Assembly: GCA_014649555.1 (NCBI GenBank)
Contig: BMTG01000011.1
Coordinates: forward strand, 248,001-312,000
From: Streptomyces globisporus
GTDB taxonomy: Bacteria; Actinomycetota; Actinomycetes; Streptomycetales; Streptomycetaceae
DNA: 64,000 bases
Direction of reading: 5' to 3'
The notes beneath the pieces were generated by a model that saw only the letters and a list, made by a program, of their open reading frames with translations, had not been told where the DNA came from and made no database searches. Position numbers and translations under genes: made by a program. Position 1 is the first letter of the stretch. Each line of letters begins with the position of its first letter. Of the stretch, positions 1,912 through 16,658 are shown piece after piece.

Positions 1912-2077
1912 GCCGCCTCCCATATGTGGGCGAAAACGCCCTGAAGTGCCCAGATCTTCCCAGGCACAATGTGTGTCCGTTGCCCCGTGGGCCGCACTCG
2001 GCCACGGGAACAGGTCTTCGTTCGCCCGGCCATCGGTCGGCGGAGGTGACTCCGGACCGTGACGGGCGGGGTACCGC

Positions 2078-4007: not shown

Positions 4008-5978
4008 CTACGCCCCGTCCGCCTTGGCCTTGGCGTCGATGGCGGCCAGCGAGCGGCGCGCCTGGTTGCGGTCGGTGGTGTACCAGAAGCCCGGCAGCGA
4101 GGCGCGCAGATAGCTGCCGTACCGCGCGTTGGCGAGCCGGGGATCCAGCACCGCGACGACGCCCTTGTCGCCCGTCGCCCGGACCAGCCTGCCCGCGCCC
4201 TGGGCCATCAGCAGGGCGGCGTGCGTCGCCGCCACGGCCATGAAGCCGTTGCCGCCCGCCTCCTCGACCGCCTTCTGCCGGGCGCTCATCAGCGGATCGT
4301 CGGGCCGGGGGAACGGAATCCGGTCCATGACCACCAGCTGACAGCTCGGCCCCGGGACATCCACGCCCTGCCAGAGCGACAGCGTGCCGAAGAGGCAGGT
4401 CTCCGGGTCGGCCGCGAAGTTCTTGATCAGCTCGCCGAGCGTCTCCTCGCCCTGGAGCAGGATCGGCTTGTCCAGGCGCCCCCGCAGCTCCTCCGCCGCC
4501 GCCTTGGCTCCCCGCATGGAGGAGAAAAGGCCCAGCGTCCGGCCGCCGGCCGCCTCCACCAGCTCGGCGAGCTCGTCCAGCATGTCCGTACGCGATCCCT
4601 CGCGCCCCGGGGTGTTCAGATGCCGGGCGACATAGAGGATGCCCTGCTTCGGGTAGTCGAAGGGGGAGCCGACGTCCAGCCCCTTCCACTGCGGGACGTC
4701 CTCGCCCGCCGTGCCCTCGGGGGCCAGTCCGAGGGACGCGCCCACGCCGTTGAAATCGCCGCCGAGCTTGAGGGTGGCCGAGGTCAGCACCACGGACCGC
4801 TCGGCGAACAGCTTCTCGCGCAGCAGCCCCGAAACGGAGAGCGGGGCGACCCGGACGGAGGCGCCGAACCGGTCGTGCTGCTCGTACCAGACGACGTCCC
4901 ACTCCGAGCCCTGGGTGATGCGCTCGGCGACGCCGTGGATCGACTCGACCGAGGCCAGGGCCTGCTTGCGGACGGCGTTCTCGTCCTCGACCGACTTGTC
5001 CCGGGTGGCGCCGATCGCGGAGATCACCGTGCGCGCCGCGTCGCGCAGCGCCATCAGCGCGTAGCCGAGGTCCTCGGGCACCTCTTCGAGCCGTCCGGGC
5101 AGCGCCAGCTCCATGACCCGCTCGAACCCCTCGGCCGCGGTCTGGAGAGCGTCGGCCGCCTTCTCGTTGACAAGTTTCGCCGCCCGCCGGACCGCGCGGT
5201 TGACCTGGGCGGGGGTCAGCTCGCCGGTGGCGACGCCGGTGACCCGGGAGACCAGCTCATGGGCCTCGTCGACGATCAGCACCTCGTGCGACGGCAGCAC
5301 CGGCGCGCCCTCGATGGCGTCGATCGCGAGCAGAGCGTGGTTGGTGACGACGACATCCGCGAGCTTGGCCCGCTCGCGGGCCGCCTCGGCGAAGCACTCG
5401 GCGCCGTACGCGCACTTCGTCGCGCCGAGGCACTCCCGCGAGGAGACCGAGACCTGGCCCCAGGCCCGGTCCGAGACTCCGGGCGTGAGGTCGTCCCGGT
5501 CGCCCGTCTCCGTCTCGTCCGACCAGTCCCTCAGTCGCAGCAGGTCCTGCCCCAGCTTGCTGGACGGGGCCGCCGCCTCGAACTGGTCGAAGAGGCCCTC
5601 CTCCTCGTCCTGCGGCACCCCTTCGTGGAGCCGGTGCAGGCAGAGGTAGTTCGACCGGCCCTTGAGCATGGCGAACTGCGGGCGCCGCCGCAGCAGCGGA
5701 TGCAGGGACTCGACCGTACGCGGAAGGTCGCGCTCCACGAGCTGTCGCTGGAGGGCGAGGGTGGCCGTGGCCACGACGACCCGCTCCCCGTGCGCCAGGG
5801 CCGGCACCAGATAGCCGAGCGACTTGCCCGTACCGGTGCCGGCCTGGACGAGCAGGTGGGATTGGTCGTCGACGGCTTCGGCGACGGCTTCGGCCATGGT
5901 GACCTGGCCGGGCCTTTCCGTACCGCCGACGGCGGTGACGGCGGCGTGCAGGAGCTCGGGGAGGGATGGCTTCGTCAT
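4008..5978 (-). CDS. DinG/YoaA-family ATP-dependent DNA helicase
   Basis: A superfamily 2 helicase of the XPD/DinG type, thought to unwind damaged or structured DNA 5' to 3'. The 656-residue protein shows Walker A AGTGTGKS at residues 46-53 and the DEAH box starting at Asp237. Between them are cysteines (in NYLC, REC, KCAYGAEC) suitable for the iron-sulfur cluster of this family. Motifs near the C-terminus (LWQGVDVPG, GAGRLVR) are typical. It lies beside lexA, convergent, but I see no SOS box of its own. The IucA/IucC gene ends only 38 bp upstream on the same strand, so read-through from the siderophore operon is possible. Confidence 0.9.
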   Translation of the reverse strand: MTKPSLPELLHAAVTAVGGTERPGQVTMAEAVAEAVDDQSHLLVQAGTGTGKSLGYLVPALAHGERVVVATATLALQRQLVERDLPRTVESLHPLLRRRPQFAMLKGRSNYLCLHRLHEGVPQDEEEGLFDQFEAAAPSSKLGQDLLRLRDWSDETETGDRDDLTPGVSDRAWGQVSVSSRECLGATKCAYGAECFAEAARERAKLADVVVTNHALLAIDAIEGAPVLPSHEVLIVDEAHELVSRVTGVATGELTPAQVNRAVRRAAKLVNEKAADALQTAAEGFERVMELALPGRLEEVPEDLGYALMALRDAARTVISAIGATRDKSVEDENAVRKQALASVESIHGVAERITQGSEWDVVWYEQHDRFGASVRVAPLSVSGLLREKLFAERSVVLTSATLKLGGDFNGVGASLGLAPEGTAGEDVPQWKGLDVGSPFDYPKQGILYVARHLNTPGREGSRTDMLDELAELVEAAGGRTLGLFSSMRGAKAAAEELRGRLDKPILLQGEETLGELIKNFAADPETCLFGTLSLWQGVDVPGPSCQLVVMDRIPFPRPDDPLMSARQKAVEEAGGNGFMAVAATHAALLMAQGAGRLVRATGDKGVVAVLDPRLANARYGSYLRASLPGFWYTTDRNQARRSLAAIDAKAKADGA

Positions 5979-6016: not shown

Positions 6017-7948
6017 TCACTCCCGGACGCGGGCGGAGGGGTGCAACGGGTTGGGAACCGTGCCGTGGATCGCCGCGTGCGGGCGGCTGGCCCGGTCCCG
6101 ATAGCCGTCGACATGCAGGCGGTTGCGGTTGAGGCAGAGGCGCTCGATCTCGGGGGTGAGCATGTCGAACAGCTCGAACCGCTCCTTCAGCTCCGGGAAG
6201 CGCGCGTGGTGACGCACCATCTCCGCCCGGACGAGTGACCAGAAGGTGTCCTCGGAGACCCCGAGCTGCTCCTCGCACAGGGGTGACAGATAGCGGAAGA
6301 CGCCGACGAAGAGGCCGGAGTGGATGAACTGGGTGAGGAAGGACGGCTCCTCGGTGAGGAGGACGGCGCGCACCTCCTCGGGCATGGAGGCGTGTTCCGG
6401 CAGCGCGCGGGCGCTGACGTTGACGTCGTCGACGAAGTCCTTGATGGCGAGCCGTACGGGCACGTCGTTCTCGTCGAACACGACGATGGCGTTCTCGCCG
6501 TGCGGGGAGAACACGGTGCCGTAGCGGTAGAGGAAGTGCAGCAGGGGCGGCAGCAGGGCGGCGAAGAGGCGCTTCAGCCAGGTCTCCGGGGAGAGGCCGG
6601 AGCGCTGGACCAGCTCCGCCGTGAACGCGCGGCCCGTCGGATCCGTATGGAGGAGGGAGGCGAGCGTGCGGGCGCGTTCGCCCGGGGCGAGGCGGGGCGG
6701 CAGGGGCTCACGCCAGATTGCGCCGAGGAGTTCCTTGTACTGGTAGGGCGCTTCGGGGAGGTGGTCGTACAGCGGATGTTCGACGGCGACGGAGGCGACC
6801 TCGCCGAGGAGGATGACCCGGCAGGTGTCGCGCAGGAAGGGGTCGCCCTCGCACAGTCCTTGGACCCAGGCGGTGACGGCGGGGGCGGCGAGGGTCCGCT
6901 CGGTCGGCAGGCCGCGCCAGACCAGGGTGTTGAGGATGGAGAGCGGGAGCTTCACCGTGTGCCGTTCGGGCCGGTCCACGTTGGCGAACGTGCGGATGGA
7001 CTGCTGCGGGAGACGGGCGTCGCCGTCGGTGTGCAGGGCCACGATGTCGCCGTCGGCGATGGCCGGGGCGAAGAGCGGCACGATCCACTCGTCCCACTGC
7101 CAGGGGTGTACGGGGAGGTAGAAGTAGTCCCGCGGGTCGTGTCCCCGGGCTCGCAGTACGTCGGCGAAGGCGTCCCGGATGTCCGGGTCGAGCTCTCCGG
7201 CGTACAGCTGGTCGGGGGTGGAGACGTGGCCGACGCCCCGGAACTGTGCGAAACGGGTGCTGACCGCGATCCACGGGAGCCGGAGCGGGCTGCGGGTCTC
7301 GGGGGTGAAGCGGGCGGCGTCGGCGGCGGAGAAGCCGAGCCTCCCCTTGCTCGCCACCAGCCAGGGGTGGCCGGTCTGGTGGCCTTCCAGCTCCGCGTAG
7401 TCCAGGGCGGCGAGCCGGTCCGCGGTGAGCGCGGTGTGGTCGAGCCGGGCGTCGGCGGACAGCGTCAGGGTCAGCTCGCGGATGAGGTGGCCCAGCGTCG
7501 TCCCGTCGAGCCCGAGGAGGTCACGGGCCCGGGTGAGGAAGGTCAGCGGGTCGCGGAACGGGCGGGAGGCGGCGGGCGAGCCGTTGGACTGCGCGGCGGC
7601 ATGGGCTGAGGGCGAGCCGTCGGACTGTACGTCGGCGGGCGAGCCGTCGGCCTGGGCGGCCTGGGGCTGCGCGGTGATCTCGATCGACTCGGGGTCGACG
7701 CGCCAGCTGCCGTAGACGCCGCGCCGGGCGGTGAAGACGAGCGCTCCCCCGTCGTCGAGGGTCAGCCGGTGGAGCCCGCCGGTCCCGGGCACCGGAACCG
7801 GCTCGATGATCTTCTCGTAGGCGAACTCACCGAGCATTTTGGCGAGGAGCCTCGCTGCGGCCCGGTCCCAGATCTGCCGGTTCAGCTCCGCGGGGCTGAA
7901 CAGCTGCGGGGACTCGGCTGCGTCACGGCTCGTGGGAGATATCGGCAC
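6017..7948 (-). CDS. IucA/IucC-family NIS siderophore synthetase (distal gene of operon)
   Basis: An NRPS-independent siderophore (NIS) synthetase: such enzymes adenylate a carboxylate, usually citrate, and condense it with an amine or alcohol. The 643-residue length and conserved blocks (GHPWLVASKGRLGF near residue 190, KLPLSILNTL, the C-terminal SPHGENAIVV and IKDFVDDV) are typical. The GTG start has a GGAGGAG ribosome binding site. Residues about 100-125 form a linker with three DGSP/NGSP repeats, an apparent local expansion. It is fourth in a minus-strand operon after the aminotransferase, a second IucA/IucC protein and a GNAT acyltransferase; gaps are 28, 110 and 60 bp. Which of the two synthetases acts first cannot be told from sequence alone. 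Confidence 0.92.
   Translation of the reverse strand: MPISPTSRDAAESPQLFSPAELNRQIWDRAAARLLAKMLGEFAYEKIIEPVPVPGTGGLHRLTLDDGGALVFTARRGVYGSWRVDPESIEITAQPQAAQADGSPADVQSDGSPSAHAAAQSNGSPAASRPFRDPLTFLTRARDLLGLDGTTLGHLIRELTLTLSADARLDHTALTADRLAALDYAELEGHQTGHPWLVASKGRLGFSAADAARFTPETRSPLRLPWIAVSTRFAQFRGVGHVSTPDQLYAGELDPDIRDAFADVLRARGHDPRDYFYLPVHPWQWDEWIVPLFAPAIADGDIVALHTDGDARLPQQSIRTFANVDRPERHTVKLPLSILNTLVWRGLPTERTLAAPAVTAWVQGLCEGDPFLRDTCRVILLGEVASVAVEHPLYDHLPEAPYQYKELLGAIWREPLPPRLAPGERARTLASLLHTDPTGRAFTAELVQRSGLSPETWLKRLFAALLPPLLHFLYRYGTVFSPHGENAIVVFDENDVPVRLAIKDFVDDVNVSARALPEHASMPEEVRAVLLTEEPSFLTQFIHSGLFVGVFRYLSPLCEEQLGVSEDTFWSLVRAEMVRHHARFPELKERFELFDMLTPEIERLCLNRNRLHVDGYRDRASRPHAAIHGTVPNPLHPSARVRE
7570..7667 (-). 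repeat. Degenerate in-frame repeat encoding DGSP/NGSP units in the NIS synthetase
   Basis: Three copies of a short GC-rich unit around the sequence GGCGAGCCGTC, at roughly 24-45 bp spacing, encode (S/A)(D/N)GSPA in a linker of the IucA/IucC protein. It looks like local slippage expansion within a tolerant loop. Confidence 0.5.
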
Positions 7949-8008
7949 GGGGACTCCTCCGGAGGGAACCTATGAGGTTCGAGCGGTTGGGGCGGTGCGG
8001 AGAGCAAG

Positions 8009-8734
8009 TCACAGCTGGGCTCGGTACGTTCGGTCGCGGATCATCAGCGCGGCGCGTTTGTCGGGGAGGTCCACTTCGGCGGAGAAGCGGAAGCCGGCGC
8101 TGAGGAACGCGGATACGGACGGGGTGTTGCGCAGGTCCGGTTCGGCGACGACGCGTCCGCACTGCGGAAGGTTGTCCAGGACGAGGTCGGCGACGGCGCG
8201 GAGCAGGGTGGTGCCCACGCCCCGGCCCCGGTTCTGCACGCCCCCCAGGAGGAGGTGGACACCGGTGTCGTGGGGGCGGGCGGGGTAGTGGCGGGCCAGG
8301 GGGTCGAGGTCGGCGCGGTAGATCTCCCAGTAGCTCATGGGGGTGCCGTCGAGCACGCCGAGACAGGGGATGCTGCGCCCGTCCCCTTCGAGCTGGGGCC
8401 GGATGTGGTCGGCGGTGACGGACTCGGGTCCGGCGAGCTCCCAGAAGGCCGCCACGGCGGGGTCGTTCATCCAGCGGCTGACGACGGGGAGGTCGCGCTC
8501 CAGCCGGACGGGGAGGAGGGCGAACTCACCCGCCGCGGTCCGCGCGGGCGGCCAGGAGCCGGGGTCGCCCAGCAGGTCACCGGGGACGGTGGCCCGCTGC
8601 GTCCCACCGCTGCGCTCCTGGGCGATCAGCGCGAGGAGCTCCTCGGTGAGCTTCAGGTCGAGGGTGTCCTCGACTCCGGTGCTCCCGCCGTCGGGTGCGG
8701 TGCCGGGTTCCGCTGAGGCGTCGGCGGGAGGCAC
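8009..8734 (-). CDS. GNAT-family acyltransferase of siderophore biosynthesis (AlcB/IucB/RhbD-like)
   Basis: Predicted to N-acylate the diamine building block used by the neighbouring NIS synthetases. The conserved GNAT half is residues about 75-240, with the blocks PVVSRWMNDPAVAAFWEL, LGVLDGTPMSYWEIY and the acyl-CoA loop QNRGRGVGTTLL typical of siderophore acyltransferases. The GTG at 8734 is chosen because a strong GAGAGGAGAG lies about eight bases upstream. The same frame is open far upstream through the preceding gene, so a longer N-terminus containing 9-residue repeats is formally possible. About 241 residues from this start; the N-terminal 70 residues are Pro/Ala-rich and not conserved in appearance. 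Acyl donor unknown. Confidence 0.85.
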   Translation of the reverse strand: MPPADASAEPGTAPDGGSTGVEDTLDLKLTEELLALIAQERSGGTQRATVPGDLLGDPGSWPPARTAAGEFALLPVRLERDLPVVSRWMNDPAVAAFWELAGPESVTADHIRPQLEGDGRSIPCLGVLDGTPMSYWEIYRADLDPLARHYPARPHDTGVHLLLGGVQNRGRGVGTTLLRAVADLVLDNLPQCGRVVAEPDLRNTPSVSAFLSAGFRFSAEVDLPDKRAALMIRDRTYRAQL

Positions 8735-8770
8735 GGTGGCGCTCTCCTCTCTGGACCGGGTGCGGTCGGT

Positions 8771-8836
8771 GAGCTTCTCCGGTGCGGGTGCGGTCGGAGT
8801 CTCTCTGGTGCGGGTTGCGCTCGGAGTCTCTCTGGT
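8771..8836 (-). repeat. 27-bp tandem repeat between NIS synthetase and GNAT gene
   Basis: CGGAGTCTCTCTGGT occurs at 8795-8809 and 8822-8836 (period 27), with a third degenerate unit near 8771. The period is a multiple of three and, in the frame of the GNAT gene, encodes TRETP repeats, so it either lies in an intercistronic spacer or in an unrecognised N-terminal extension. Confidence 0.7.
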
Positions 8837-8844
8837 ACGGCGGT

Positions 8845-10734
8845 TCAGCTGTGGAGCGGGTTGGCGATCGTGACGTACACGGACTGGGTGTCGACCGGCC
8901 CGACCAGCTCGTCGAGGCCGTGCAGCCGGGTCAGCAGGTTGGCCTTGCAGCGCAGTTGGCGGTTCTCCAGGAGATAGGCGGGCAGGGGCGAGCCCAGTTC
9001 CGCCGTCTCGGTGAGGAATCGGCGCAGGACGGTGAGGAGTTGCTGTTCGTCGGCGAGGCGCTGGGACCCGAACGCCCCGATGAGGCCGAGGACGTTGTTG
9101 ATGCCGAGGTAGTAGGCGAAGCGTTCGTCGGTGACCGGGTCGGAGACGAAGGTGTCGCTGACGGTGCCGATGCCGGGGAGCCGCCGGTCCAGCTCGGCGC
9201 GGCGGGAGTCGCGGAAGTAGTAGCCCTGGTTGTCCCGGTAGCGGCCGCCGACGGGCCAGCCGTCCGGGTCGAGGAGGACGAGGGTGTTCTGCTGGTGGGC
9301 TTCGAGGGCGACTCCGCCGTGGGCGTCGAGCCAGAGGACGGGGCGCACGACGTGGTGCAGATAGCGCCGGAACCATTCGGCGGAGACGTCGGTGGCGGTG
9401 AGGCCGGTGCGGGCGCGCAGGCCGGAGACGACCTCGGAGAGCCGTGAGTGCATACCGGGGCGGCCGGGCCGGGGGCGCTGTGCGGTGAGTCCGGCGATGC
9501 AGGCGGCGTCGTCGCCCGGGCCGAAGGGGTTGTGGCGGAGCACCACGTCGAGCCCGGTGACGGGAGTGCCCTCGGGGTCGTCGACGGCGAGCCAGGCGGG
9601 GTCGCGGACGATGTCGAAGCCGGGGTGCTCCCGCTGCCAGTGCTCGGCGAGGCCGGTGGACAGGAGGCGGTGGACCTCGAAGCCCCGGTGCAGTTCCTTG
9701 CGGAGGTTCTCCCGGCGCGAGTTGGTGATGCGTACGCCGAGGGAGAGCTTGAGCATCACCCGCGCCCCGGGCCGGTGCACGGTGCGGATGGAGGAGGTGG
9801 GGTGCCAGGGATCGCCGTGCGGGCCGAGGTCGTGGAGGAGGCCGGTCTCGGCGAGGGCACGGACCTGGGGGCGGTGGATCAGGTCGGCGGCCTGCCAGGG
9901 GTGGACGGGGACGGCGACGGTGCCGGGGGGCGTCTTCAGCCCTGCGGCGTGCGGGGCGAGCAGTTCCTCGGCGGTGGCGGGACCGCCGTCGCTCCAGGCG
10001 GAGTCGGTGGCGGCCAGCGACCGGTCGACGGCGAACCAGTGCAGCGGGAAGGAGCCGTGGAGCTCGGGTGAATAGCGGCGGGACTCCGATTCGGAGAGGC
10101 CCTCGCGGCTCTTGGGCGTGGGGTGGAGGGGGTGGCCCAGCAGCAGGGACTGTTCGGCGGTGAGGAAGAGGTCCGCCTCGGCGGGGTCGGCCGGGCTGCG
10201 CCGCCGCTGCTCGATGAAGCCGGCGGTGTGGCGTACGGAGTCGGCGACCCGGGCGACCAGATCGCCCGCGCCGCTCTCGCCGCCCTCGCGGCCGATGAGG
10301 ACGGCGACGGTGGCGGCGTCGGCGGGCGGGGCGCCGGCGGGGGCGTTCTCCAGGGCGGGCGCGCCGAAGCGGTGGGCCCCGGTGGCGGACCAGTAGTGCA
10401 CGGGGACGAGGAGGGCGGTGCCGCTGGCGGGGAAGGCAATGCGCAGGGTGTCGCCGTCGGGGCGGGGCAGGTCGTTCTCCCTGGTCCAGCACCGCAGCAG
10501 GCTTTCGGTGCCCGCCGCGTCGGCGGCCCGCAGCGGGTCCGGGTCGTCGAGCGCGTCGAGGCCCGGGGCCGCGAGGTCCGGACCGGGTGCGTACGCGGCG
10601 GGGTCGGCGTCGTGCGGGGATTTCTGGCGGGGCACGGTCGTCGCCTCGACCGTGCCGGGGGCGGCCGGTCCGTCCTGCCCTCGGTGCTGGGGGGTACCGG
10701 GGCCGTCGGCCTCGGGCGCGGGGGTGGGGTTCAC
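8845..10734 (-). CDS. IucA/IucC-family NIS siderophore synthetase (proximal gene of operon)
   Basis: A second NIS synthetase, 629 residues, clearly a distant paralogue of the one at the operon's end. Conserved blocks include LLGHPLHPTPKSREGL (the GHP-HP-K-R nucleotide-binding signature), KLSLGVRITNSRREN, WLDAHGGVALEAHQQNTLV and GRYRDNQGYYFR. The first 75 residues are a low-complexity Pro/Ala/Asp extension. The GTG start at 10734 follows AAGGAAG and lies 28 bp after the aminotransferase stop. Having two synthetases suggests sequential acylation of the two ends of a symmetric carboxylate such as citrate, as in aerobactin and schizokinen pathways; this is inference from family precedent. Confidence 0.92.
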   Translation of the reverse strand: MNPTPAPEADGPGTPQHRGQDGPAAPGTVEATTVPRQKSPHDADPAAYAPGPDLAAPGLDALDDPDPLRAADAAGTESLLRCWTRENDLPRPDGDTLRIAFPASGTALLVPVHYWSATGAHRFGAPALENAPAGAPPADAATVAVLIGREGGESGAGDLVARVADSVRHTAGFIEQRRRSPADPAEADLFLTAEQSLLLGHPLHPTPKSREGLSESESRRYSPELHGSFPLHWFAVDRSLAATDSAWSDGGPATAEELLAPHAAGLKTPPGTVAVPVHPWQAADLIHRPQVRALAETGLLHDLGPHGDPWHPTSSIRTVHRPGARVMLKLSLGVRITNSRRENLRKELHRGFEVHRLLSTGLAEHWQREHPGFDIVRDPAWLAVDDPEGTPVTGLDVVLRHNPFGPGDDAACIAGLTAQRPRPGRPGMHSRLSEVVSGLRARTGLTATDVSAEWFRRYLHHVVRPVLWLDAHGGVALEAHQQNTLVLLDPDGWPVGGRYRDNQGYYFRDSRRAELDRRLPGIGTVSDTFVSDPVTDERFAYYLGINNVLGLIGAFGSQRLADEQQLLTVLRRFLTETAELGSPLPAYLLENRQLRCKANLLTRLHGLDELVGPVDTQSVYVTIANPLHS

Positions 10735-10762
10735 GGCGTTCTTCCTTGTGGGGATTCCGGGG

Positions 10763-12157
10763 TCAGGTGGTCGGCCCGGCGGTGGTCCGACGGTGCGGGG
10801 AGCGTGTCGCGGCTGCCAGCGCGTCGGCGAGACGGTCGACGACGGCAGTCGCCTGCTCGTCGGTGAGGGTGAGGGGCGGCAGGAGGCGGACCACGGCGCC
10901 GTGCCGGCCGCCGAGTTCGACGATGAGGCCGCGGCGCAGGCATTCCTGCTGGACGGCGAGGGCGAGGGCCGGGTCGGGCGGCGGGGCCGGTGCGGGGTCG
11001 CCGGATTCGGCGGGCAGGGGCGCGCTCTCGGGATCCACCAGCTCCAGGCCGATCATCAGTCCACGCCCCCGTACGTCACCGATTCCCGGGTGATGCGCCT
11101 TCAGTTCCCTGAGACGGGAGAGCATCCGGGCCCCCAGGACCGCTGCGCGGTCCGCCAGTTGATTCTCCCTGACGTACGCGAGCGTGGCCGCGCCCGCCGC
11201 CATGGCGAGCTGGTTGCCACGAAACGTACCCGCGTGCGCGCCCGGCTGCCAAAGATCCAGCTCAGCGCGGTAGACGATCACGGCGAGGGGCAGGGAGCCG
11301 CCGATCGCCTTGGAGAGGACCATGACGTCGGGGACGATGCCGCTGTGCTCGACGGCCCAGAACGCGCCGGTCCTGCCGACCCCGGTCTGGACCTCGTCGG
11401 CGATGAGCGGGATGGACCGTTCCTCGGTGATCCGGCGCATGCGGCGCAGCCAGGCGTCGGGGGCGGGGTTGACGCCGCCCTCGCCCTGGACGGGCTCCAC
11501 GATCATCCCGGCGGGGGCCGGCACGCCGCCCTTGCGGTCGTCCAGCAGGTGTTCGGTCCAGCGGGCGGCGAGCGTGGCGCCGTGCTCGCCGCCGGTGCCG
11601 AACGGGCAGCGGTAGTCCTGCGGGAAGGGGAGCCGGGTGACCCGTACGTCGGTGGCGCCGCCGGAGGCTTCCAGGGCTCCGGCGGTCATGCCGTGGTAGG
11701 CGCCGGTGAAGGTCAGCAGGCCGGAGCGCCCGGTCGCGGAGCGGACCAGCTTGAACGCGGCCTCGACGGCGTCCGTGCCGGCGGGGCCGCAGAACTGGAT
11801 GCGGGCGTTGTCGGCGAACTGCCGGGGCAGGGTGGCGAACAGCTCGGTGGTGAAGGCGTCCTTGACCGGGGTGGCGAGGTCCAGCACATGCAGGGGGGCG
11901 CCGGAGTCGATGACCTTCCGGATCGCTTCGAGCACGACCGGGTGGTTGTGGCCGAGTGCCAGGGTGCCCGCGCCCGACAGGCAGTCCAGATACCGCCGGC
12001 CGTCCGCGCCCTCGATGGTGAGCCCGCGGGCGCGCACCGGGACGATCGGCAGGGACCGGGCGTAGGTGCGGGCCGCCGATTCGCGCAGGGACTGGCGGCG
12101 GAGGATGCTCTCGTGCGCGGAGGGCGGCGCCACCGGTGCGGGTTCGGTCACGGACAC
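10763..12157 (-). CDS. Diaminobutyrate--2-oxoglutarate aminotransferase (class III, PLP)
   Basis: Predicted to make L-2,4-diaminobutyrate from aspartate semialdehyde, feeding the siderophore synthetases downstream. The 464-residue protein has class III aminotransferase features: GPAGTDAVEAA, the ADEVQTGVGRTG block, the PLP lysine in LSKAIGG, and HAGTFRGNQLAM, which is characteristic of diaminobutyrate aminotransferases (EctB, RhbA and relatives). The GTG at 12157 is chosen over an upstream start because a perfect AGGAGG lies ten bases upstream. A second in-frame GTG six bases later is less well placed. No ectA or ectC lies nearby, so ectoine synthesis is not indicated. It is the first gene of the four-gene siderophore operon. 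I saw no clear iron box in the upstream 300 bp. Confidence 0.88.
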   Translation of the reverse strand: MSVTEPAPVAPPSAHESILRRQSLRESAARTYARSLPIVPVRARGLTIEGADGRRYLDCLSGAGTLALGHNHPVVLEAIRKVIDSGAPLHVLDLATPVKDAFTTELFATLPRQFADNARIQFCGPAGTDAVEAAFKLVRSATGRSGLLTFTGAYHGMTAGALEASGGATDVRVTRLPFPQDYRCPFGTGGEHGATLAARWTEHLLDDRKGGVPAPAGMIVEPVQGEGGVNPAPDAWLRRMRRITEERSIPLIADEVQTGVGRTGAFWAVEHSGIVPDVMVLSKAIGGSLPLAVIVYRAELDLWQPGAHAGTFRGNQLAMAAGAATLAYVRENQLADRAAVLGARMLSRLRELKAHHPGIGDVRGRGLMIGLELVDPESAPLPAESGDPAPAPPPDPALALAVQQECLRRGLIVELGGRHGAVVRLLPPLTLTDEQATAVVDRLADALAAATRSPHRRTTAGPTT

Positions 12158-12458
12158 GGCTCTTGATCCTCCTGCGGTAACAGTTGCGTTGCACGTCGGT
12201 ACGATTTCGCGCGGACGCACCGAGGCCGTGAACGCTGTCCTGGTGTCCCCCGTACGTACCAACGACGCCGACCGCGATGGATCACGGGTAAATCGGAACA
12301 TCCTCGCGGCGACGGAACCGTGGACCTGCCGCGTGCCGTCACCATCGGCACCGGCATAGTGGGGGCCGCACAGCGGCGCGGAAGCACCTGCTCCGGCGCC
12401 CGAAGTGTCCGCAATGCAGCACGAGTACCGAGTGACGAAGTCCCAGGGGGATCACGAG
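12158..12458. other. Divergent intergenic region between siderophore operon and first protease gene
   Basis: It contains the AGGAGG ribosome binding site of the aminotransferase and a weak GGGGG site before the protease ATG. I looked for a DmdR/IdeR iron box (TTAGG..CCTAA type) and for convincing -35/-10 pairs and found none that I would defend. Confidence 0.5.
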
Positions 12459-13679
12459 ATGCGACCCATTCGCCCGACCGATACCGCACGCCGCGGGAGG
12501 CGCGCACGGCGCATGCCCTCCTCCGCGCTCGCCGCGACCGCCGTAGCCGCCGTGCTGGCGCTCACCGCCACCGCGTGCGGTCCGGAGGAGGACAACGCGG
12601 GCGGTACGCCCAGCGCTTCGGCCGGCCAGGCCGACGGCAAGGTCACCATCCCGGACGACCTGAAGGACCGCCTCAAGGAGCACGGGATCGACCCCGACCA
12701 GTGGCGGGACGGGGAGTGGAAGAACTGGGACAAGGACAAGTGGCTGCGTGAGGCCAAGGACTTCGTCAACCCGATCATCGAGGGCCTGTGGGACCCGGAC
12801 CGGATGCGGGATGCCGACAAGCCCCCGGAGAACCCGGTCGACAACGACATCTCGGGCGACGACGGCGTGACGGACCCGACGCCGGCCCCGGTCCGTGCCG
12901 CCGGTGTCGCGACGCCGTACCACGACAACGCCCCGGAGTCCGGGAAGCTGCTCTTCGACGGCCCGCAGGGCTCGATGGTCTGTTCCGCGACCGTCGTGAA
13001 GGACCCGGCGAACCCCGGCAAGTCCAACATGGTGTGGACCGCCGGACACTGTGTGCACGCGGGCAAGAAGGGCGGCTGGTACCGCAACATCGCCTTCGTC
13101 CCGGCGTACAACAACGACGGTCTGTCGCTGGCCGAGCTGGAGACCGCGCCCAAGGAGAAGATCGCTCCCTACGGTGTGTGGTGGGGCCAGTGGGCCCAGA
13201 CCTCCGAGCAGTGGATCGAGCAGGGCGCCGCGACCGGCGGCCAGGGCGCGCCGTACGACTTCGCGGTGCTGCACGTGACGCCGGAGAAGGGCGCGGGCGG
13301 CAAGTCGCTGGAGGAGACGGTCGGTTCGGCGCTGCCGGTCGAGTTCAACGCTCCGGCCGTGCCGAAGATCGCCGAGATGACGGCCACGGGCTACCCGGCC
13401 GCACCGCCGTACGACGGTCAGAAGCTGCTCCAGTGCAAGGACAAGCCGGGCCGGCTCTCGGTCTTCCGGGAGCAGCCCACGATGTACCGCATCGGCTGCA
13501 CGATGACCGGTGGTTCCTCCGGCGGCGGCTGGGTCGCGGCGGGTCAGGACGGCAAGCCCGCCCTGGTCTCGAACACCTCGATCGGCCCGGTCACGGCGGG
13601 CTGGCTGGCCGGTCCGCGGCTCGGCAAGGAGGCCGAGGGCGTCTACCGCGCGGTGAGTGAGAAGTACGCGGGCCAGTAG
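12459..13679 (+). CDS. Trypsin-like serine protease lipoprotein, copy 1
   Basis: Secreted, membrane-anchored chymotrypsin-fold peptidase. The 406-residue product begins with an Arg-rich n-region, a hydrophobic segment and a lipobox ending LTATAC, with lipidated Cys40. The mature part starts with an acidic/Lys-rich segment (residues about 60-135, repeats of W and K/D: DQWRDGEWKNWDKDKW) of unknown role, then the protease domain with His197 (WTAGHC), Asp in YDFAVLH, and Ser354 in GGSSGGG. The ATG at 12459 is chosen because it gives a complete lipoprotein signal and follows a GGGGG site. A 14-bp terminator follows. It is paralogous over its whole length to the next gene; substrate unknown. Confidence 0.88.
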   Translation: MRPIRPTDTARRGRRARRMPSSALAATAVAAVLALTATACGPEEDNAGGTPSASAGQADGKVTIPDDLKDRLKEHGIDPDQWRDGEWKNWDKDKWLREAKDFVNPIIEGLWDPDRMRDADKPPENPVDNDISGDDGVTDPTPAPVRAAGVATPYHDNAPESGKLLFDGPQGSMVCSATVVKDPANPGKSNMVWTAGHCVHAGKKGGWYRNIAFVPAYNNDGLSLAELETAPKEKIAPYGVWWGQWAQTSEQWIEQGAATGGQGAPYDFAVLHVTPEKGAGGKSLEETVGSALPVEFNAPAVPKIAEMTATGYPAAPPYDGQKLLQCKDKPGRLSVFREQPTMYRIGCTMTGGSSGGGWVAAGQDGKPALVSNTSIGPVTAGWLAGPRLGKEAEGVYRAVSEKYAGQ

Positions 13680-13874: not shown

Positions 13875-15047
13875 ATGCGATCGATACGTCCGCTGCTGGC
13901 CGCCACCGGCCTCGTCGCGGCGCTCACACTGACGGCCACGGCCTGCGGTCCCGAGGAGGACTCCGCGGCCGCCAAGCCGTCGGCCACCGACGGAGCGGCC
14001 GAGAAGGACCCTGCCGCCGGTCTTCCCGGCGATCTGGGCGACGCCCTGGAGAAGCACGGGGTGGACCCGGAGAAGTGGAAGAAGGGGGAGTGGAAGAACT
14101 GGGACAAGGACGGCTGGCTGCGCAAGGCCGAGGACTTCGTCAACCCGGTCATCGACGGCCTGTGGAAGCCGGAGCGGATGGCTTCGGCGGAGGAGCCCGC
14201 CAAGACGATGGCGGCAGGTGACCTCTCCGCCGGCCAGGACGTCAGCGACCCGGAGCCAGCCCCGGTGCAGGCCAAGCCGGAGAAGCTGCCCTACCACCGG
14301 TACGCAGCCCCGGTCGGCAAGGTCTTCTTCGACTCCCCCAAGGGCTCCATGGTGTGCTCGGGCACGGTCGTGAAGGACCCGAAGAACCCCGGGAAGTCCA
14401 ACCTCGTGTGGACCGCCGGACACTGTGTGCACGCGGGCGCGGGCGGCGGCTGGTACCGCAACATCGTCTTCGTGCCCTCGTACAACGACCAGGGCAAGAA
14501 CGCGGCGCAGCTGCGGACCGCGCAGCCGCAGGAGATCGCCCCGTACGGCACCTACTGGGCGGACTGGGCCGCATCTTCCGGCGAGTGGATCTCCGGCGGC
14601 GGCCCGACGGGCGGCGCCGGTGCCCCGTACGACTACGCGGTCCTGCATGTGAAGCCCGAGAACGGGACCAAGTCCCTCGAGGAGACCGTGGGCAACGCGC
14701 TGCCGGTCTCCTTCGACGCTCCGGAGATCCAGCAGATCAGCGGCATGGGCGCCTGGGGCTACCCGGCGGGTCCGCCGTACGACGGTCTGCTGATGCACCA
14801 GTGCGTCGACCGTCCCGGCCGGCTCTCGATCGCCCCGGGGACCCCGACCATGTACCGGATCGGCTGCACCATGACGGGCGGCTCCTCCGGTGGCGGCTGG
14901 TTCGTCGCCGGGCCGGACGGGAAGTCGATGCTGGTCTCCAACACCTCGATCGGACCGGTCACTTCGGGCTGGCTGGCCGGACCACGGCTGGGCGAGGACG
15001 CCCGGCGCACCTTCACGACGATGAGCGACACGTTCGCGGGGCGGTAG
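13875..15047 (+). CDS. Trypsin-like serine protease lipoprotein, copy 2
   Basis: Tandem paralogue of the preceding gene, 390 residues. It shares the lipobox (LTATAC, Cys24), the immediately following GPEED, the Trp/Lys-rich segment (EWKNWDKDGWLRKAEDFVNP is nearly identical to copy 1) and the catalytic triad: His183 in WTAGHC, Asp in YDYAVLH, Ser338 in GGSSGGG. The shorter signal peptide lacks the Arg-rich start of copy 1. The ATG at 13875 follows a GGGGG site. The copies probably arose by tandem duplication and then diverged in signal peptide and linker. A shared bidirectional hairpin separates it from convergent hflX. Confidence 0.88.
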   Translation: MRSIRPLLAATGLVAALTLTATACGPEEDSAAAKPSATDGAAEKDPAAGLPGDLGDALEKHGVDPEKWKKGEWKNWDKDGWLRKAEDFVNPVIDGLWKPERMASAEEPAKTMAAGDLSAGQDVSDPEPAPVQAKPEKLPYHRYAAPVGKVFFDSPKGSMVCSGTVVKDPKNPGKSNLVWTAGHCVHAGAGGGWYRNIVFVPSYNDQGKNAAQLRTAQPQEIAPYGTYWADWAASSGEWISGGGPTGGAGAPYDYAVLHVKPENGTKSLEETVGNALPVSFDAPEIQQISGMGAWGYPAGPPYDGLLMHQCVDRPGRLSIAPGTPTMYRIGCTMTGGSSGGGWFVAGPDGKSMLVSNTSIGPVTSGWLAGPRLGEDARRTFTTMSDTFAGR

Positions 15048-15137: not shown

Positions 15138-16658
15138 TCAGTGCGCGGCGAGGGCGAAGGTCTCCAGCTCGGCGGCCAGCTCCTCGTGGACCTGGGCCTT
15201 GAGCAGGGTGCCCTCGGCGGTGTGCTCCTCGGAGAGCACCTCACCCTCGGCATGCACCCGGGAGACCAGGGCCCCCTGGATGTACGGCACGAGCACCTCG
15301 ACCAGGACGGACGGCCGGGGCAGCTCGGCGTCGATGAGTGCGAGCAGTTCCTCGATGCCTTCGCCCGTGCGAGCCGAGACCGTGATCGCGTACTTCTCGT
15401 TGCGCAGCAGGCGCTGGATGACCAGGGGGTCCGCCGCGTCCGCCTTGTTGATGACGACGATCTCTCGTACGTTCACCGCGCCGACGTCCCGGATCACCTC
15501 GCGCACCGCGGCGAGCTGCTCCTCCGGCACCGGATGGGAGCCGTCCACCACGTGGAGGATGAGATCGGACTCGCCGACCTCCTCCATCGTGGAGCGGAAC
15601 GCCTCGACGAGGTGGTGCGGCAGATGCCGGACAAATCCGACGGTGTCGGCCAGGGTGTAGATCCGGCCGCTCGGCGTCTCGGCACGGCGGACGGTCGGGT
15701 CCAGGGTGGCGAACAGGGCGTTCTCCACCAGGACTCCGGCCCCGGTCAGACGGTTGAGCAGCGAGGACTTGCCCGCGTTGGTGTATCCGGCGATGGCGAC
15801 GGAGGGCACCTTGTTGCGCTTGCGCTCCTGGCGCTTGATCTCGCGGCCGGTCTTCATCTCCGCGATCTCCCGGCGCATCTTCGCCATCTTCTCGCGGATC
15901 CGCCGCCGGTCCGTCTCGATCTTGGTCTCACCGGGACCACGGGTGGCCATACCGCCACCGCCACTGGAACCGCCGCCGCCCATCTGCCGGGAGAGCGACT
16001 GACCCCAGCCGCGCAGCCTGGGCAGCATGTACTGCATCTGCGCGAGCGAGACCTGCGCCTTGCCCTCGCGGGACTTGGCGTGCTGGGCGAAGATGTCGAG
16101 GATCAGGGCGGTCCGGTCGACCACCTTGACCTTGACGACGTCTTCCAGGTGGATCAGCTGGCCGGGGCTCAGCTCACCGTCGCAGACGACGGTGTCGGCA
16201 CCGGATTCGAGCACGATGTCGCGCAGCTCCAGCGCCTTGCCCGATCCGATGTAGGTCGCCGGGTCGGGCTTGTCGCGCCGCTGGTACACCGCGTCCAGCA
16301 CCTGGGCGCCCGCCGTCTCGGCGAGGGCGGCGAGCTCCGCGAGGGAGATCTCCGCGTCGTGCACCGTCCCCGAGGTCCAGACGCCCACCAGCACCACGCG
16401 CTCCAGGCGCAGCTGGCGGTACTCGACCTCGGTGACGTCCTCGAGCTCGGTGGAGAGACCTGCCACACGCCGCAGCGCGGCACGCTCGGAGCGGTCGAGC
16501 TGTTGGCCGTCGCGTGCTCCGTCGATCTCGTGGCTCCAGGCGACGTCCTCTTCCATCAGGGCGTCGGCCCGGCGGGCCTCGGTGAGGCTCTCGGTGGTGT
16601 TCTCCGTGGCGCTCTGCGCGTCCTGCGCGTCCTGGGGAAGGGAAGAAGAGGAGGTCAT
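15138..16658 (-). CDS. hflX: Ribosome-associated GTPase HflX
   Basis: Binds the 50S subunit and splits stalled or hibernating ribosomes during stress. The 506-residue protein has the HflX N-terminal domain (residues about 80-260, including DPATYIGSGKALEL), the glycine-rich linker GGGGSSGGGG followed by RGPGETKIETDRR, and the GTPase domain with G1 GYTNAGKSS, G3 DTVGFV and G4 NKAD. The first 65 residues are a variable acidic extension. The ATG at 16658 has GAGG immediately upstream. It is convergent with the protease gene and stands alone on the strand. Confidence 0.96.
   Translation of the reverse strand: MTSSSSLPQDAQDAQSATENTTESLTEARRADALMEEDVAWSHEIDGARDGQQLDRSERAALRRVAGLSTELEDVTEVEYRQLRLERVVLVGVWTSGTVHDAEISLAELAALAETAGAQVLDAVYQRRDKPDPATYIGSGKALELRDIVLESGADTVVCDGELSPGQLIHLEDVVKVKVVDRTALILDIFAQHAKSREGKAQVSLAQMQYMLPRLRGWGQSLSRQMGGGGSSGGGGMATRGPGETKIETDRRRIREKMAKMRREIAEMKTGREIKRQERKRNKVPSVAIAGYTNAGKSSLLNRLTGAGVLVENALFATLDPTVRRAETPSGRIYTLADTVGFVRHLPHHLVEAFRSTMEEVGESDLILHVVDGSHPVPEEQLAAVREVIRDVGAVNVREIVVINKADAADPLVIQRLLRNEKYAITVSARTGEGIEELLALIDAELPRPSVLVEVLVPYIQGALVSRVHAEGEVLSEEHTAEGTLLKAQVHEELAAELETFALAAH

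Follow-up and report, generated by a model that had tools for sequence, protein, structure and literature searches.

How can a siderophore gene cluster that encodes an aminotransferase, two synthetases and an acyltransferase, and neither a decarboxylase nor a hydroxylase, lead to a product? The question is raised by a 64,000-nt stretch of Streptomyces globisporus DNA (GenBank assembly GCA_014649555.1, contig BMTG01000011.1, positions 248,001 to 312,000), referred to here as the window, in which four minus-strand genes, called A, C, D and F below, lie between positions 6017 and 12157. Their order is that of rhbABCDEF minus B and E. The cluster looks incomplete most likely because the pathway is split over two loci. 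Judging from gene content and synteny, we think it quite likely that A-C-D-F is one half of an rhbABCDEF-type (schizokinen-type) pathway for a nonribosomal-peptide-synthetase-independent siderophore (NIS), with a B-E gene pair supplied in trans from a site between pepN and pyk. Because the two missing genes sit together elsewhere in the chromosome, the product would probably be schizokinen-like and not of a new kind. The novelty lies in the trans pair and the fixed site that it occupies, together with the complete version of the A-C-D-F slot in another family.

Gene A (10763..12157, minus strand, GTG start codon at 12157) encodes a predicted csbA/rhbA-like L-2,4-diaminobutyrate:2-oxoglutarate aminotransferase. 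It matches PF00202, scores 480.6 bits against the diaminobutyrate transaminase model TIGR00709 and hence above its cut-off of 401.6, and has 6rl5, an L-2,4-diaminobutyrate (DABA) transaminase, as best match in the PDB. Gene C (8845..10734, minus strand) is a predicted csbB/rhbC-like NIS synthetase of the IucA type (PF04183, 230 bits; PF06276, 115 bits; best PDB match IucA, 5jm7, E 2.9e-61), and gene F (6017..7948, minus strand) a predicted csbD/rhbF-like type C NIS synthetase (PF04183, 245 bits; PF06276, 144 bits) that is nearest to DesD (7tgn, E 3.6e-96), AlcC and IucC (6cn7, E 1.7e-87). The synthetase pair thus consists of one IucA-type and one IucC-type enzyme. Gene D (8009..8734, minus strand) encodes a putative csbC/rhbD-like GNAT N-acyltransferase, with PF13523 matched at residues 78-223 (161 bits) and about 60-75 residues ahead of the GNAT domain; its best PDB match is MbtK, BH2621 (2qml) was also matched, and it resembles the hydroxamate-siderophore acyltransferases MbtK, DfoC and SidF. 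The gaps are 28 nt (A-C), 110 nt (C-D), 60 nt (D-F) and 38 nt (F-dinG). On sequence grounds the four open reading frames are real and not chance, and the preliminary description of the locus, which had assigned these functions to four minus-strand genes, agrees with the reading frames and family profiles found here. Two smaller features were seen within the cluster. One is a low-complexity insert near the N-terminus of F (7560-7660, minus strand) with repeated Q-x-[DN]GSP, and the other a set of short imperfect repeats (cagagagactccga and following) in the C-D gap (8735-8844, minus strand).

The whole genome was searched for the missing functions. It contains three PF04183 loci, which are the window pair and desD, four PF00282 decarboxylases, and five strong PF13434 hydroxylases among 13 matches. 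None of the decarboxylases and hydroxylases is on the window contig (C11), so that the earlier statement that the cluster has neither enzyme holds for the contig as a whole. A decarboxylase and a hydroxylase occur together at three places, namely in the desferrioxamine (des) cluster on contig C9, as a pair on contig C4, and as a pair at the end of contig C12. On C4, the predicted rhbB-like decarboxylase gene B (L021:9790-11385, minus strand; DABA-type signatures, best PDB match 2qma) and the predicted rhbE-like FAD N-hydroxylase gene E (L021:8366-9793, minus strand; PF13434, 385 bits; best PDB match S. sviceus DesB, 6xbb) form a two-gene operon (L021:8366-11385) with a 4-nt overlap. It has pepN on one side and genes leading to pyk on the other, and no synthetase was found near it in the 20 kb read. 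By homology, B is a predicted L-2,4-diaminobutyrate decarboxylase, with its pyridoxal-phosphate lysine kept, and E a predicted 1,3-diaminopropane N-hydroxylase. All six rhb gene types are encoded in the genome and they are not contiguous, B and E being on another contig.

The pair and its site are conserved. B and E are adjacent in 17/17 loci (L087-L103), a count that leaves out loci L104 and L105 of genome G012, which hold B fragments without E. Among the best 80 of 358 confirmed B loci, E accompanies B in 79 (although for L174 and L198 just a short version of E was called), the 4-nt overlap is present in 73, pepN in 75 and pyk in 74. Genes A, C, D, F and desD were found in the flanks of 0/80 of these loci, the flanks being the full 10 kb on both sides in 67 of them. 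In G012, C and D lie away from hflX and dinG near the chromosome end (L113), and B is in two fragments; L113, L104 and L105 may represent a decayed or moved copy. The pair on C12 (L022:128-2981), at the contig end, also stands alone. Its decarboxylase is 57% identical to that of C4, and the pair lies beside a putative KatG gene. Since the counterpart of this pair in the one-contig genome G005 (L106) is likewise stand-alone, with no synthetases in the stretch read, the C12-type pair may act as a supplier in this clade, alongside the C4 pair or in its stead.

From the presence, synteny, phylogeny, signature residues and co-occurrence of these genes we infer every reaction and the product as follows. 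A would form L-2,4-diaminobutyrate, B would decarboxylate it to 1,3-diaminopropane, E would N-hydroxylate one amine of the latter, and D would acylate the hydroxylamine. C, of the IucA type, would couple one such unit to citrate and F, of type C, a second. The end product would be a citrate dihydroxamate, that is schizokinen or a close acyl variant.

A second family of the order (f3, which we guess to be Streptosporangiaceae) shows the slot in its complete form, five of the six loci mapped holding A-B-C-D-E-F. In L121, L122, L123 and L126 the six genes are followed by dinG, L122 and L123 having an additional gene in between; L124 shows A to F up to the contig end, and L125 has only C between hflX and dinG. 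Upstream, hflX adjoins A in the outgroup loci L122-L124 and is not visible in the stretches of L121 and L126. The simplest reading of the sequences is that the slot operon was complete in a common ancestor and that B and E are elsewhere in Streptomyces. In the Streptomyces lineage a contiguous A-B-C-D-E-F before dinG would have been stripped of B and E, and the B-E pair at the second site, whether relocated from the original position or a substitute for the old genes, would serve the slot genes.

The slot has been reduced further within the genus. The 61 loci mapped (the window included as one) comprise 23 with A-C-D-F, 12 with A-C-D, 10 with C-D-F, five with C-D, one with A-C, one with A alone, two with F alone at a contig end, and seven that are empty; F, and sometimes A or D, would have been lost from the slot in some lineages. 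B is kept in 10/15 F-less, C-positive genomes in which B was tested. Contiguous A-B-C-E-F clusters without a recognised D were also seen at other places (L118 on C3 of G018, L120 in G025, and L244 in G074) and may be further schizokinen-like clusters. In L118 and L120 an unassigned gene of 412 and 390 aa, respectively, separates E from F, and ABC-ATPase-like genes adjoin the clusters.

C was found in 142/151 Streptomyces genomes (E 1e-75 or better), with no inner stops in nearly all rows listed. In the 65 genomes in which both C and B were tested, split-locus B was present in 49/56 C-positive and 0/9 C-negative genomes, G012 being counted as B-positive with its two B fragments without E. When the locus was read directly, split B was found in 37/44 C-positive genomes versus 0/7 clear C-negative ones (Fisher p 3e-5, relatedness ignored). 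For this count G058 and G164, in which contigs end inside the locus, were dropped (G058 is C-negative probably from a cut contig, F being present), eight genomes with B untested were left uncounted, and G065 and G073, whose B is confined to a second, contiguous cluster, were scored as without split B. The suggestion in the preliminary description that the missing steps are supplied elsewhere is supported by the rhbB-/rhbE-like pair on another contig and its co-occurrence with the cluster in the compared genomes.

Trees were built for B (46 rows) and E (44 rows), with 27 split-locus rows in each. The split B form one clade (98/93) and the split E form one clade (96/89); both fall on the side of the B and E of contiguous clusters and are set apart from desA and desB at 100/100, so that neither B nor E belongs to the desferrioxamine clades. 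In the B tree, the sister group nearest to the split rows joins the C12-type pair and the B from L118, a contiguous cluster; in the E tree it is the C12-type pair. Long-branch warnings concern L119 and L244 in the B tree and L119 and L189 in the E tree. Signature residues point the same way. Split-B rows carry HLH[TC]PPL (94/98), S[ML]DSWDQA (98/98) and DLHKLGWQ (96/98), a few of the 98 rows being same-genome copies (97 fetched, 96 distinct), and are close to the DABA decarboxylase structure 2qma (HLHTPPL, SMDSWDQA, HKL). In contrast, desA rows carry HLNCPVV (7/8), SLDTWDQS (7/8) and D[YF]HKSFFQ (8/8), as in the desferrioxamine decarboxylase structure 5o5c (HLNCPVV, DTWDQS, DYHKSFFQ). The division is not clean, since in f3 loci B reads S[QL]DSWDQS, and SLDSWDRS occurs in one desA row.

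The locus has been described before. According to the passages of PMC9600172 available, Streptomyces sp. YIM 121038 carries this locus as the cryptic csb cluster, with csbA (DABA transaminase), csbB (IucA), csbC (acyltransferase) and csbD (IucC) followed by DinG, LexA and NrdR; genes and order are the same as here. Its authors noted the absent hydroxylase gene, csbC could not be disrupted, and CsbC N-succinylated antibiotic amines in vitro. Those passages do not speak of a decarboxylase or hydroxylase encoded in trans, whereas here B-E was found on C4. In S. coelicolor, SCO5799-SCO5801 is a putative siderophore cluster with SCO5799 as aminotransferase (PMC7324645, PMC3610822, in part); presumably it occupies the same slot, and its three genes would fit the A-C-D lineages without F. 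The rhizobactin 1021/schizokinen cluster rhbABCDEF, for which the roles of RhbB, RhbE, RhbD and RhbF/RhbC and schizokinen are summarised in PMC3534580 (accessible passages), has the six gene types in common with this genome, and the f3-family loci even have the same A-B-C-D-E-F order. In Streptomyces, by contrast, B and E sit apart from the other genes, neither operon shows a recognisable iron box, and A-C-D-F has no recognised importer next to it. With desABCD the pathway shares the classes of decarboxylase, N-hydroxylase, acyltransferase and synthetase, but desABCD follows a lysine/cadaverine route, is contiguous and has an iron box in 6/8 loci, and B and E lie outside the desA/desB clades. 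A search of the literature (titles, abstract starts and passages, supplements excluded) gave no paper that describes these genes as acting in trans.

Schizokinen has been reported from the genus. As far as the consulted parts of the reports go, S. anulatus RLA103 yielded dehydroxynocardamine (assigned to BGC 1.24) and schizokinen (BGC 1.15) by liquid chromatography-mass spectrometry (LC-MS; PMC11865988), and LC-MS gave schizokinen in S. mutomycini SL02 (putative) and strain SL03 (tentative) (PMC13136089). The genome of S. anulatus JCM 4721 contains three PF04183 loci, which are a desD (93% to ours, beside desC), an F (90%) next to D and dinG, and another locus 2.7 kb from this F, at the position that C has here. 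The B-E pair is also present in that genome (L129). By elimination, since JCM 4721 has only desD and the csb synthetase pair, csb together with B-E is the likely source of S. anulatus schizokinen, provided that RLA103 has the gene set of JCM 4721.

Regulation was compared at both operons. With the 19-bp IdeR/DmdR consensus taken as iron box, no match was found in the window at <=5 mismatches, as the preliminary description had said in noting no obvious iron box, and at <=6 mismatches 0/37 A upstreams and 0/100 B upstreams matched (two of the latter beside the G012 fragments); at exactly 7 mismatches, one A upstream and eight B upstreams matched. The same scan detected an iron box upstream of desA in 6/8 loci (0-3 mismatches), the two without being f3 loci. 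Alignment of A upstreams revealed a conserved element, CGTCGTTGGTACGTACGGGG (12248..12267, minus strand), which is a candidate promoter or operator. At <=3 mismatches it occurs in 23/23 A-C-D-F, 2/12 A-C-D, 2/10 C-D-F, 2/5 C-D, 1/1 A-C and 1/7 empty loci, and its spread tracks both relatedness and gene content. A search of the genome at <=2 mismatches gave no second copy of the first 19 bases, and k-mer comparison did not find the element upstream of B. The preliminary description had held that its proposed product would be refuted by a decarboxylase and a monooxygenase that are encoded elsewhere, co-regulated with the cluster and yield a known siderophore; of these points, the presence of the two genes elsewhere has been borne out.

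Several observations weigh against the proposal that A-C-D-F and B-E are halves of one pathway. No regulatory motif common to both operons emerged from the iron-box scan, the upstream alignment or the k-mers. In the S. globisporus genome the second B-E pair, on C12, could also serve. The trees do not show the split B-E descending from the B and E of the slot, the B of f3 loci being a weak group (69/20). With the RhbB model, B reaches 287 bits, short of the cut-off of 900, and DesA scores higher (436); because DesA outscores B, the model is not decisive. Seven of the 44 C-positive genomes are without split B (G008, G010, G065, G073, G074, G080 and G146), of which five are also without F, while G010 and G008 keep it. 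On the dinG tree, C changes four times; two independent pairs lie on well-supported branches (sign test p 0.5), and four are counted on all branches, with B going the same way as C. This test falls short of significance because there are too few events. The mirror-tree comparison (eight genomes) is weak and mixed, with a partial correlation of 0.02 for B-C, 0.37 for B-D, 0.46 for E-C and 0.65 for E-D. Finally, according to the passages of PMC9600172, a search for a product of csb in YIM 121038 gave none and CsbC prefers succinyl-CoA over acetyl-CoA in vitro, and the schizokinen identifications are by LC-MS, partly tentative or putative, in producer strains outside the set of genomes compared here.

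The alternative that survives best, which we consider unlikely, is a variant of the split pathway in which D would use succinyl-CoA and F would activate the succinyl carboxylate, giving a citrate or macrocyclic hydroxamate of N-hydroxy-N-succinyl-1,3-diaminopropane. DesD and AlcC, with which F scores highest, act on succinyl hydroxamates; IucC, however, is nearly equal to them in score. CsbC N-succinylates amines in vitro and is poor with acetyl-CoA, but in the passages available the substrates assayed were antibiotics and some primary metabolites, not N-hydroxydiaminopropane (PMC9600172). The schizokinen reported from S. anulatus and others is the acetyl compound, which also speaks for acetylation.

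A carboxylate-type metallophore without hydroxamates, of a kind not known to have been described, had been put forward in the preliminary description. Acyl-diaminobutyrate would keep its carboxylate and be coupled to citrate without decarboxylase or hydroxylase, in line with the absence of B and E from the window contig. Staphyloferrin-type NIS products without hydroxamates exist, and C and F match the SbnF/SbnC models, albeit far below cut-off. Against this, B and E share the slot in 5/6 mapped f3-family loci, B is in 0/7 clear C-negative genomes, D matches the acyltransferases of hydroxamate siderophores, and schizokinen is reported in S. anulatus and related strains. Synteny and co-occurrence led us to drop this product as the leading reading, and we now regard it as very improbable.

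It is at least as improbable that DesA and DesB supply the missing steps while the pepN-pyk pair serves another pathway. The des cluster is in the same genome, and DesA fits the RhbB model better than B. However, DesB is an unlikely stand-in for E because S. sviceus DesB gave no product from 1,3-diaminopropane (PMC8009421, accessible part), and B is present in 0/7 clear C-negative genomes. Moreover, S. atratus OK807, S. griseus BIG105 and S. halstedii, in assemblies of completeness not given, have two PF04183 loci each, both of csb type, yet carry B and E; in BIG105, E adjoins B on the opposite side, within sequence that includes 2750 N, and a des-type cluster has been reported for a different strain of S. 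atratus (PMC6011815). Supply by DesA and DesB was rejected on the inactivity of S. sviceus DesB and on these three assemblies, which keep B-E without a desD-type PF04183 locus. That the cluster is a decaying remnant without function, as the loss of F, A or D in several lineages (23/61 mapped loci have complete A-C-D-F) and the seven of 44 C-positive genomes without split B, five of them also F-less, might suggest, has only a slight chance of being right given the near genus-wide C with hardly any inner stops, the 4-nt B-E overlap in 73 of the best 80 of 358 loci, the kept pyridoxal-phosphate lysine of B, and the failure to disrupt csbC in YIM 121038 (PMC9600172, in part).

The surroundings of the cluster agree with the csb locus. 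Downstream of A-C-D-F follow dinG (4008..5978, minus strand; NCBIfam and Pfam helicase matches), which with the locus maps defines one flank of the slot, then lexA and nrdR. The upstream flank is hflX (15138..16658, minus strand; TIGR03156, 428 bits). The cluster had been placed between dinG and hflX; dinG is indeed adjacent, while between A and hflX two divergent tandem genes intervene (12513-13679 and 13875-15047, plus strand). Their products are related to each other, begin with a signal-like sequence and have features resembling trypsin (TAGHC and GGSSGGGW in the first); neither matched a Pfam or NCBIfam family, and the pair is kept at the same place in most Streptomyces loci mapped. An nrdJ RNA (RF03034, 71.1 bits) lies at 1935-2015 (minus strand) between nrdR and nrdJ. 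The lack of an importer noted earlier was borne out among the ten window genes run against Pfam, the remaining window genes not having been searched for one.

The split pathway may have a further history, which we put forward tentatively and hold to be rather unlikely. The operon would have been dismantled stepwise, B and E being moved or replaced together and F, in places A or D, lost afterwards; F-less lineages with A-C-D and B-E would hand a C3-diamine hydroxamate unit to, for example, DesD, giving mixed siderophores. A 2024 study by Su et al. in AEM reportedly concerns crosstalk of NIS pathways in desferrioxamine derivatives and may overlap with this idea. If it is true, stepwise dismantling makes one pathway a building-block supplier for another. 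For the genus, a cluster whose gene C is nearly universal (142/151) and which has been called cryptic now has the two genes named that most likely complete it, so that its product becomes testable, and B-E together with csb offers a source for the schizokinen reported from Streptomyces. The split operon also illustrates how genome mining based on clusters can mislabel a pathway.

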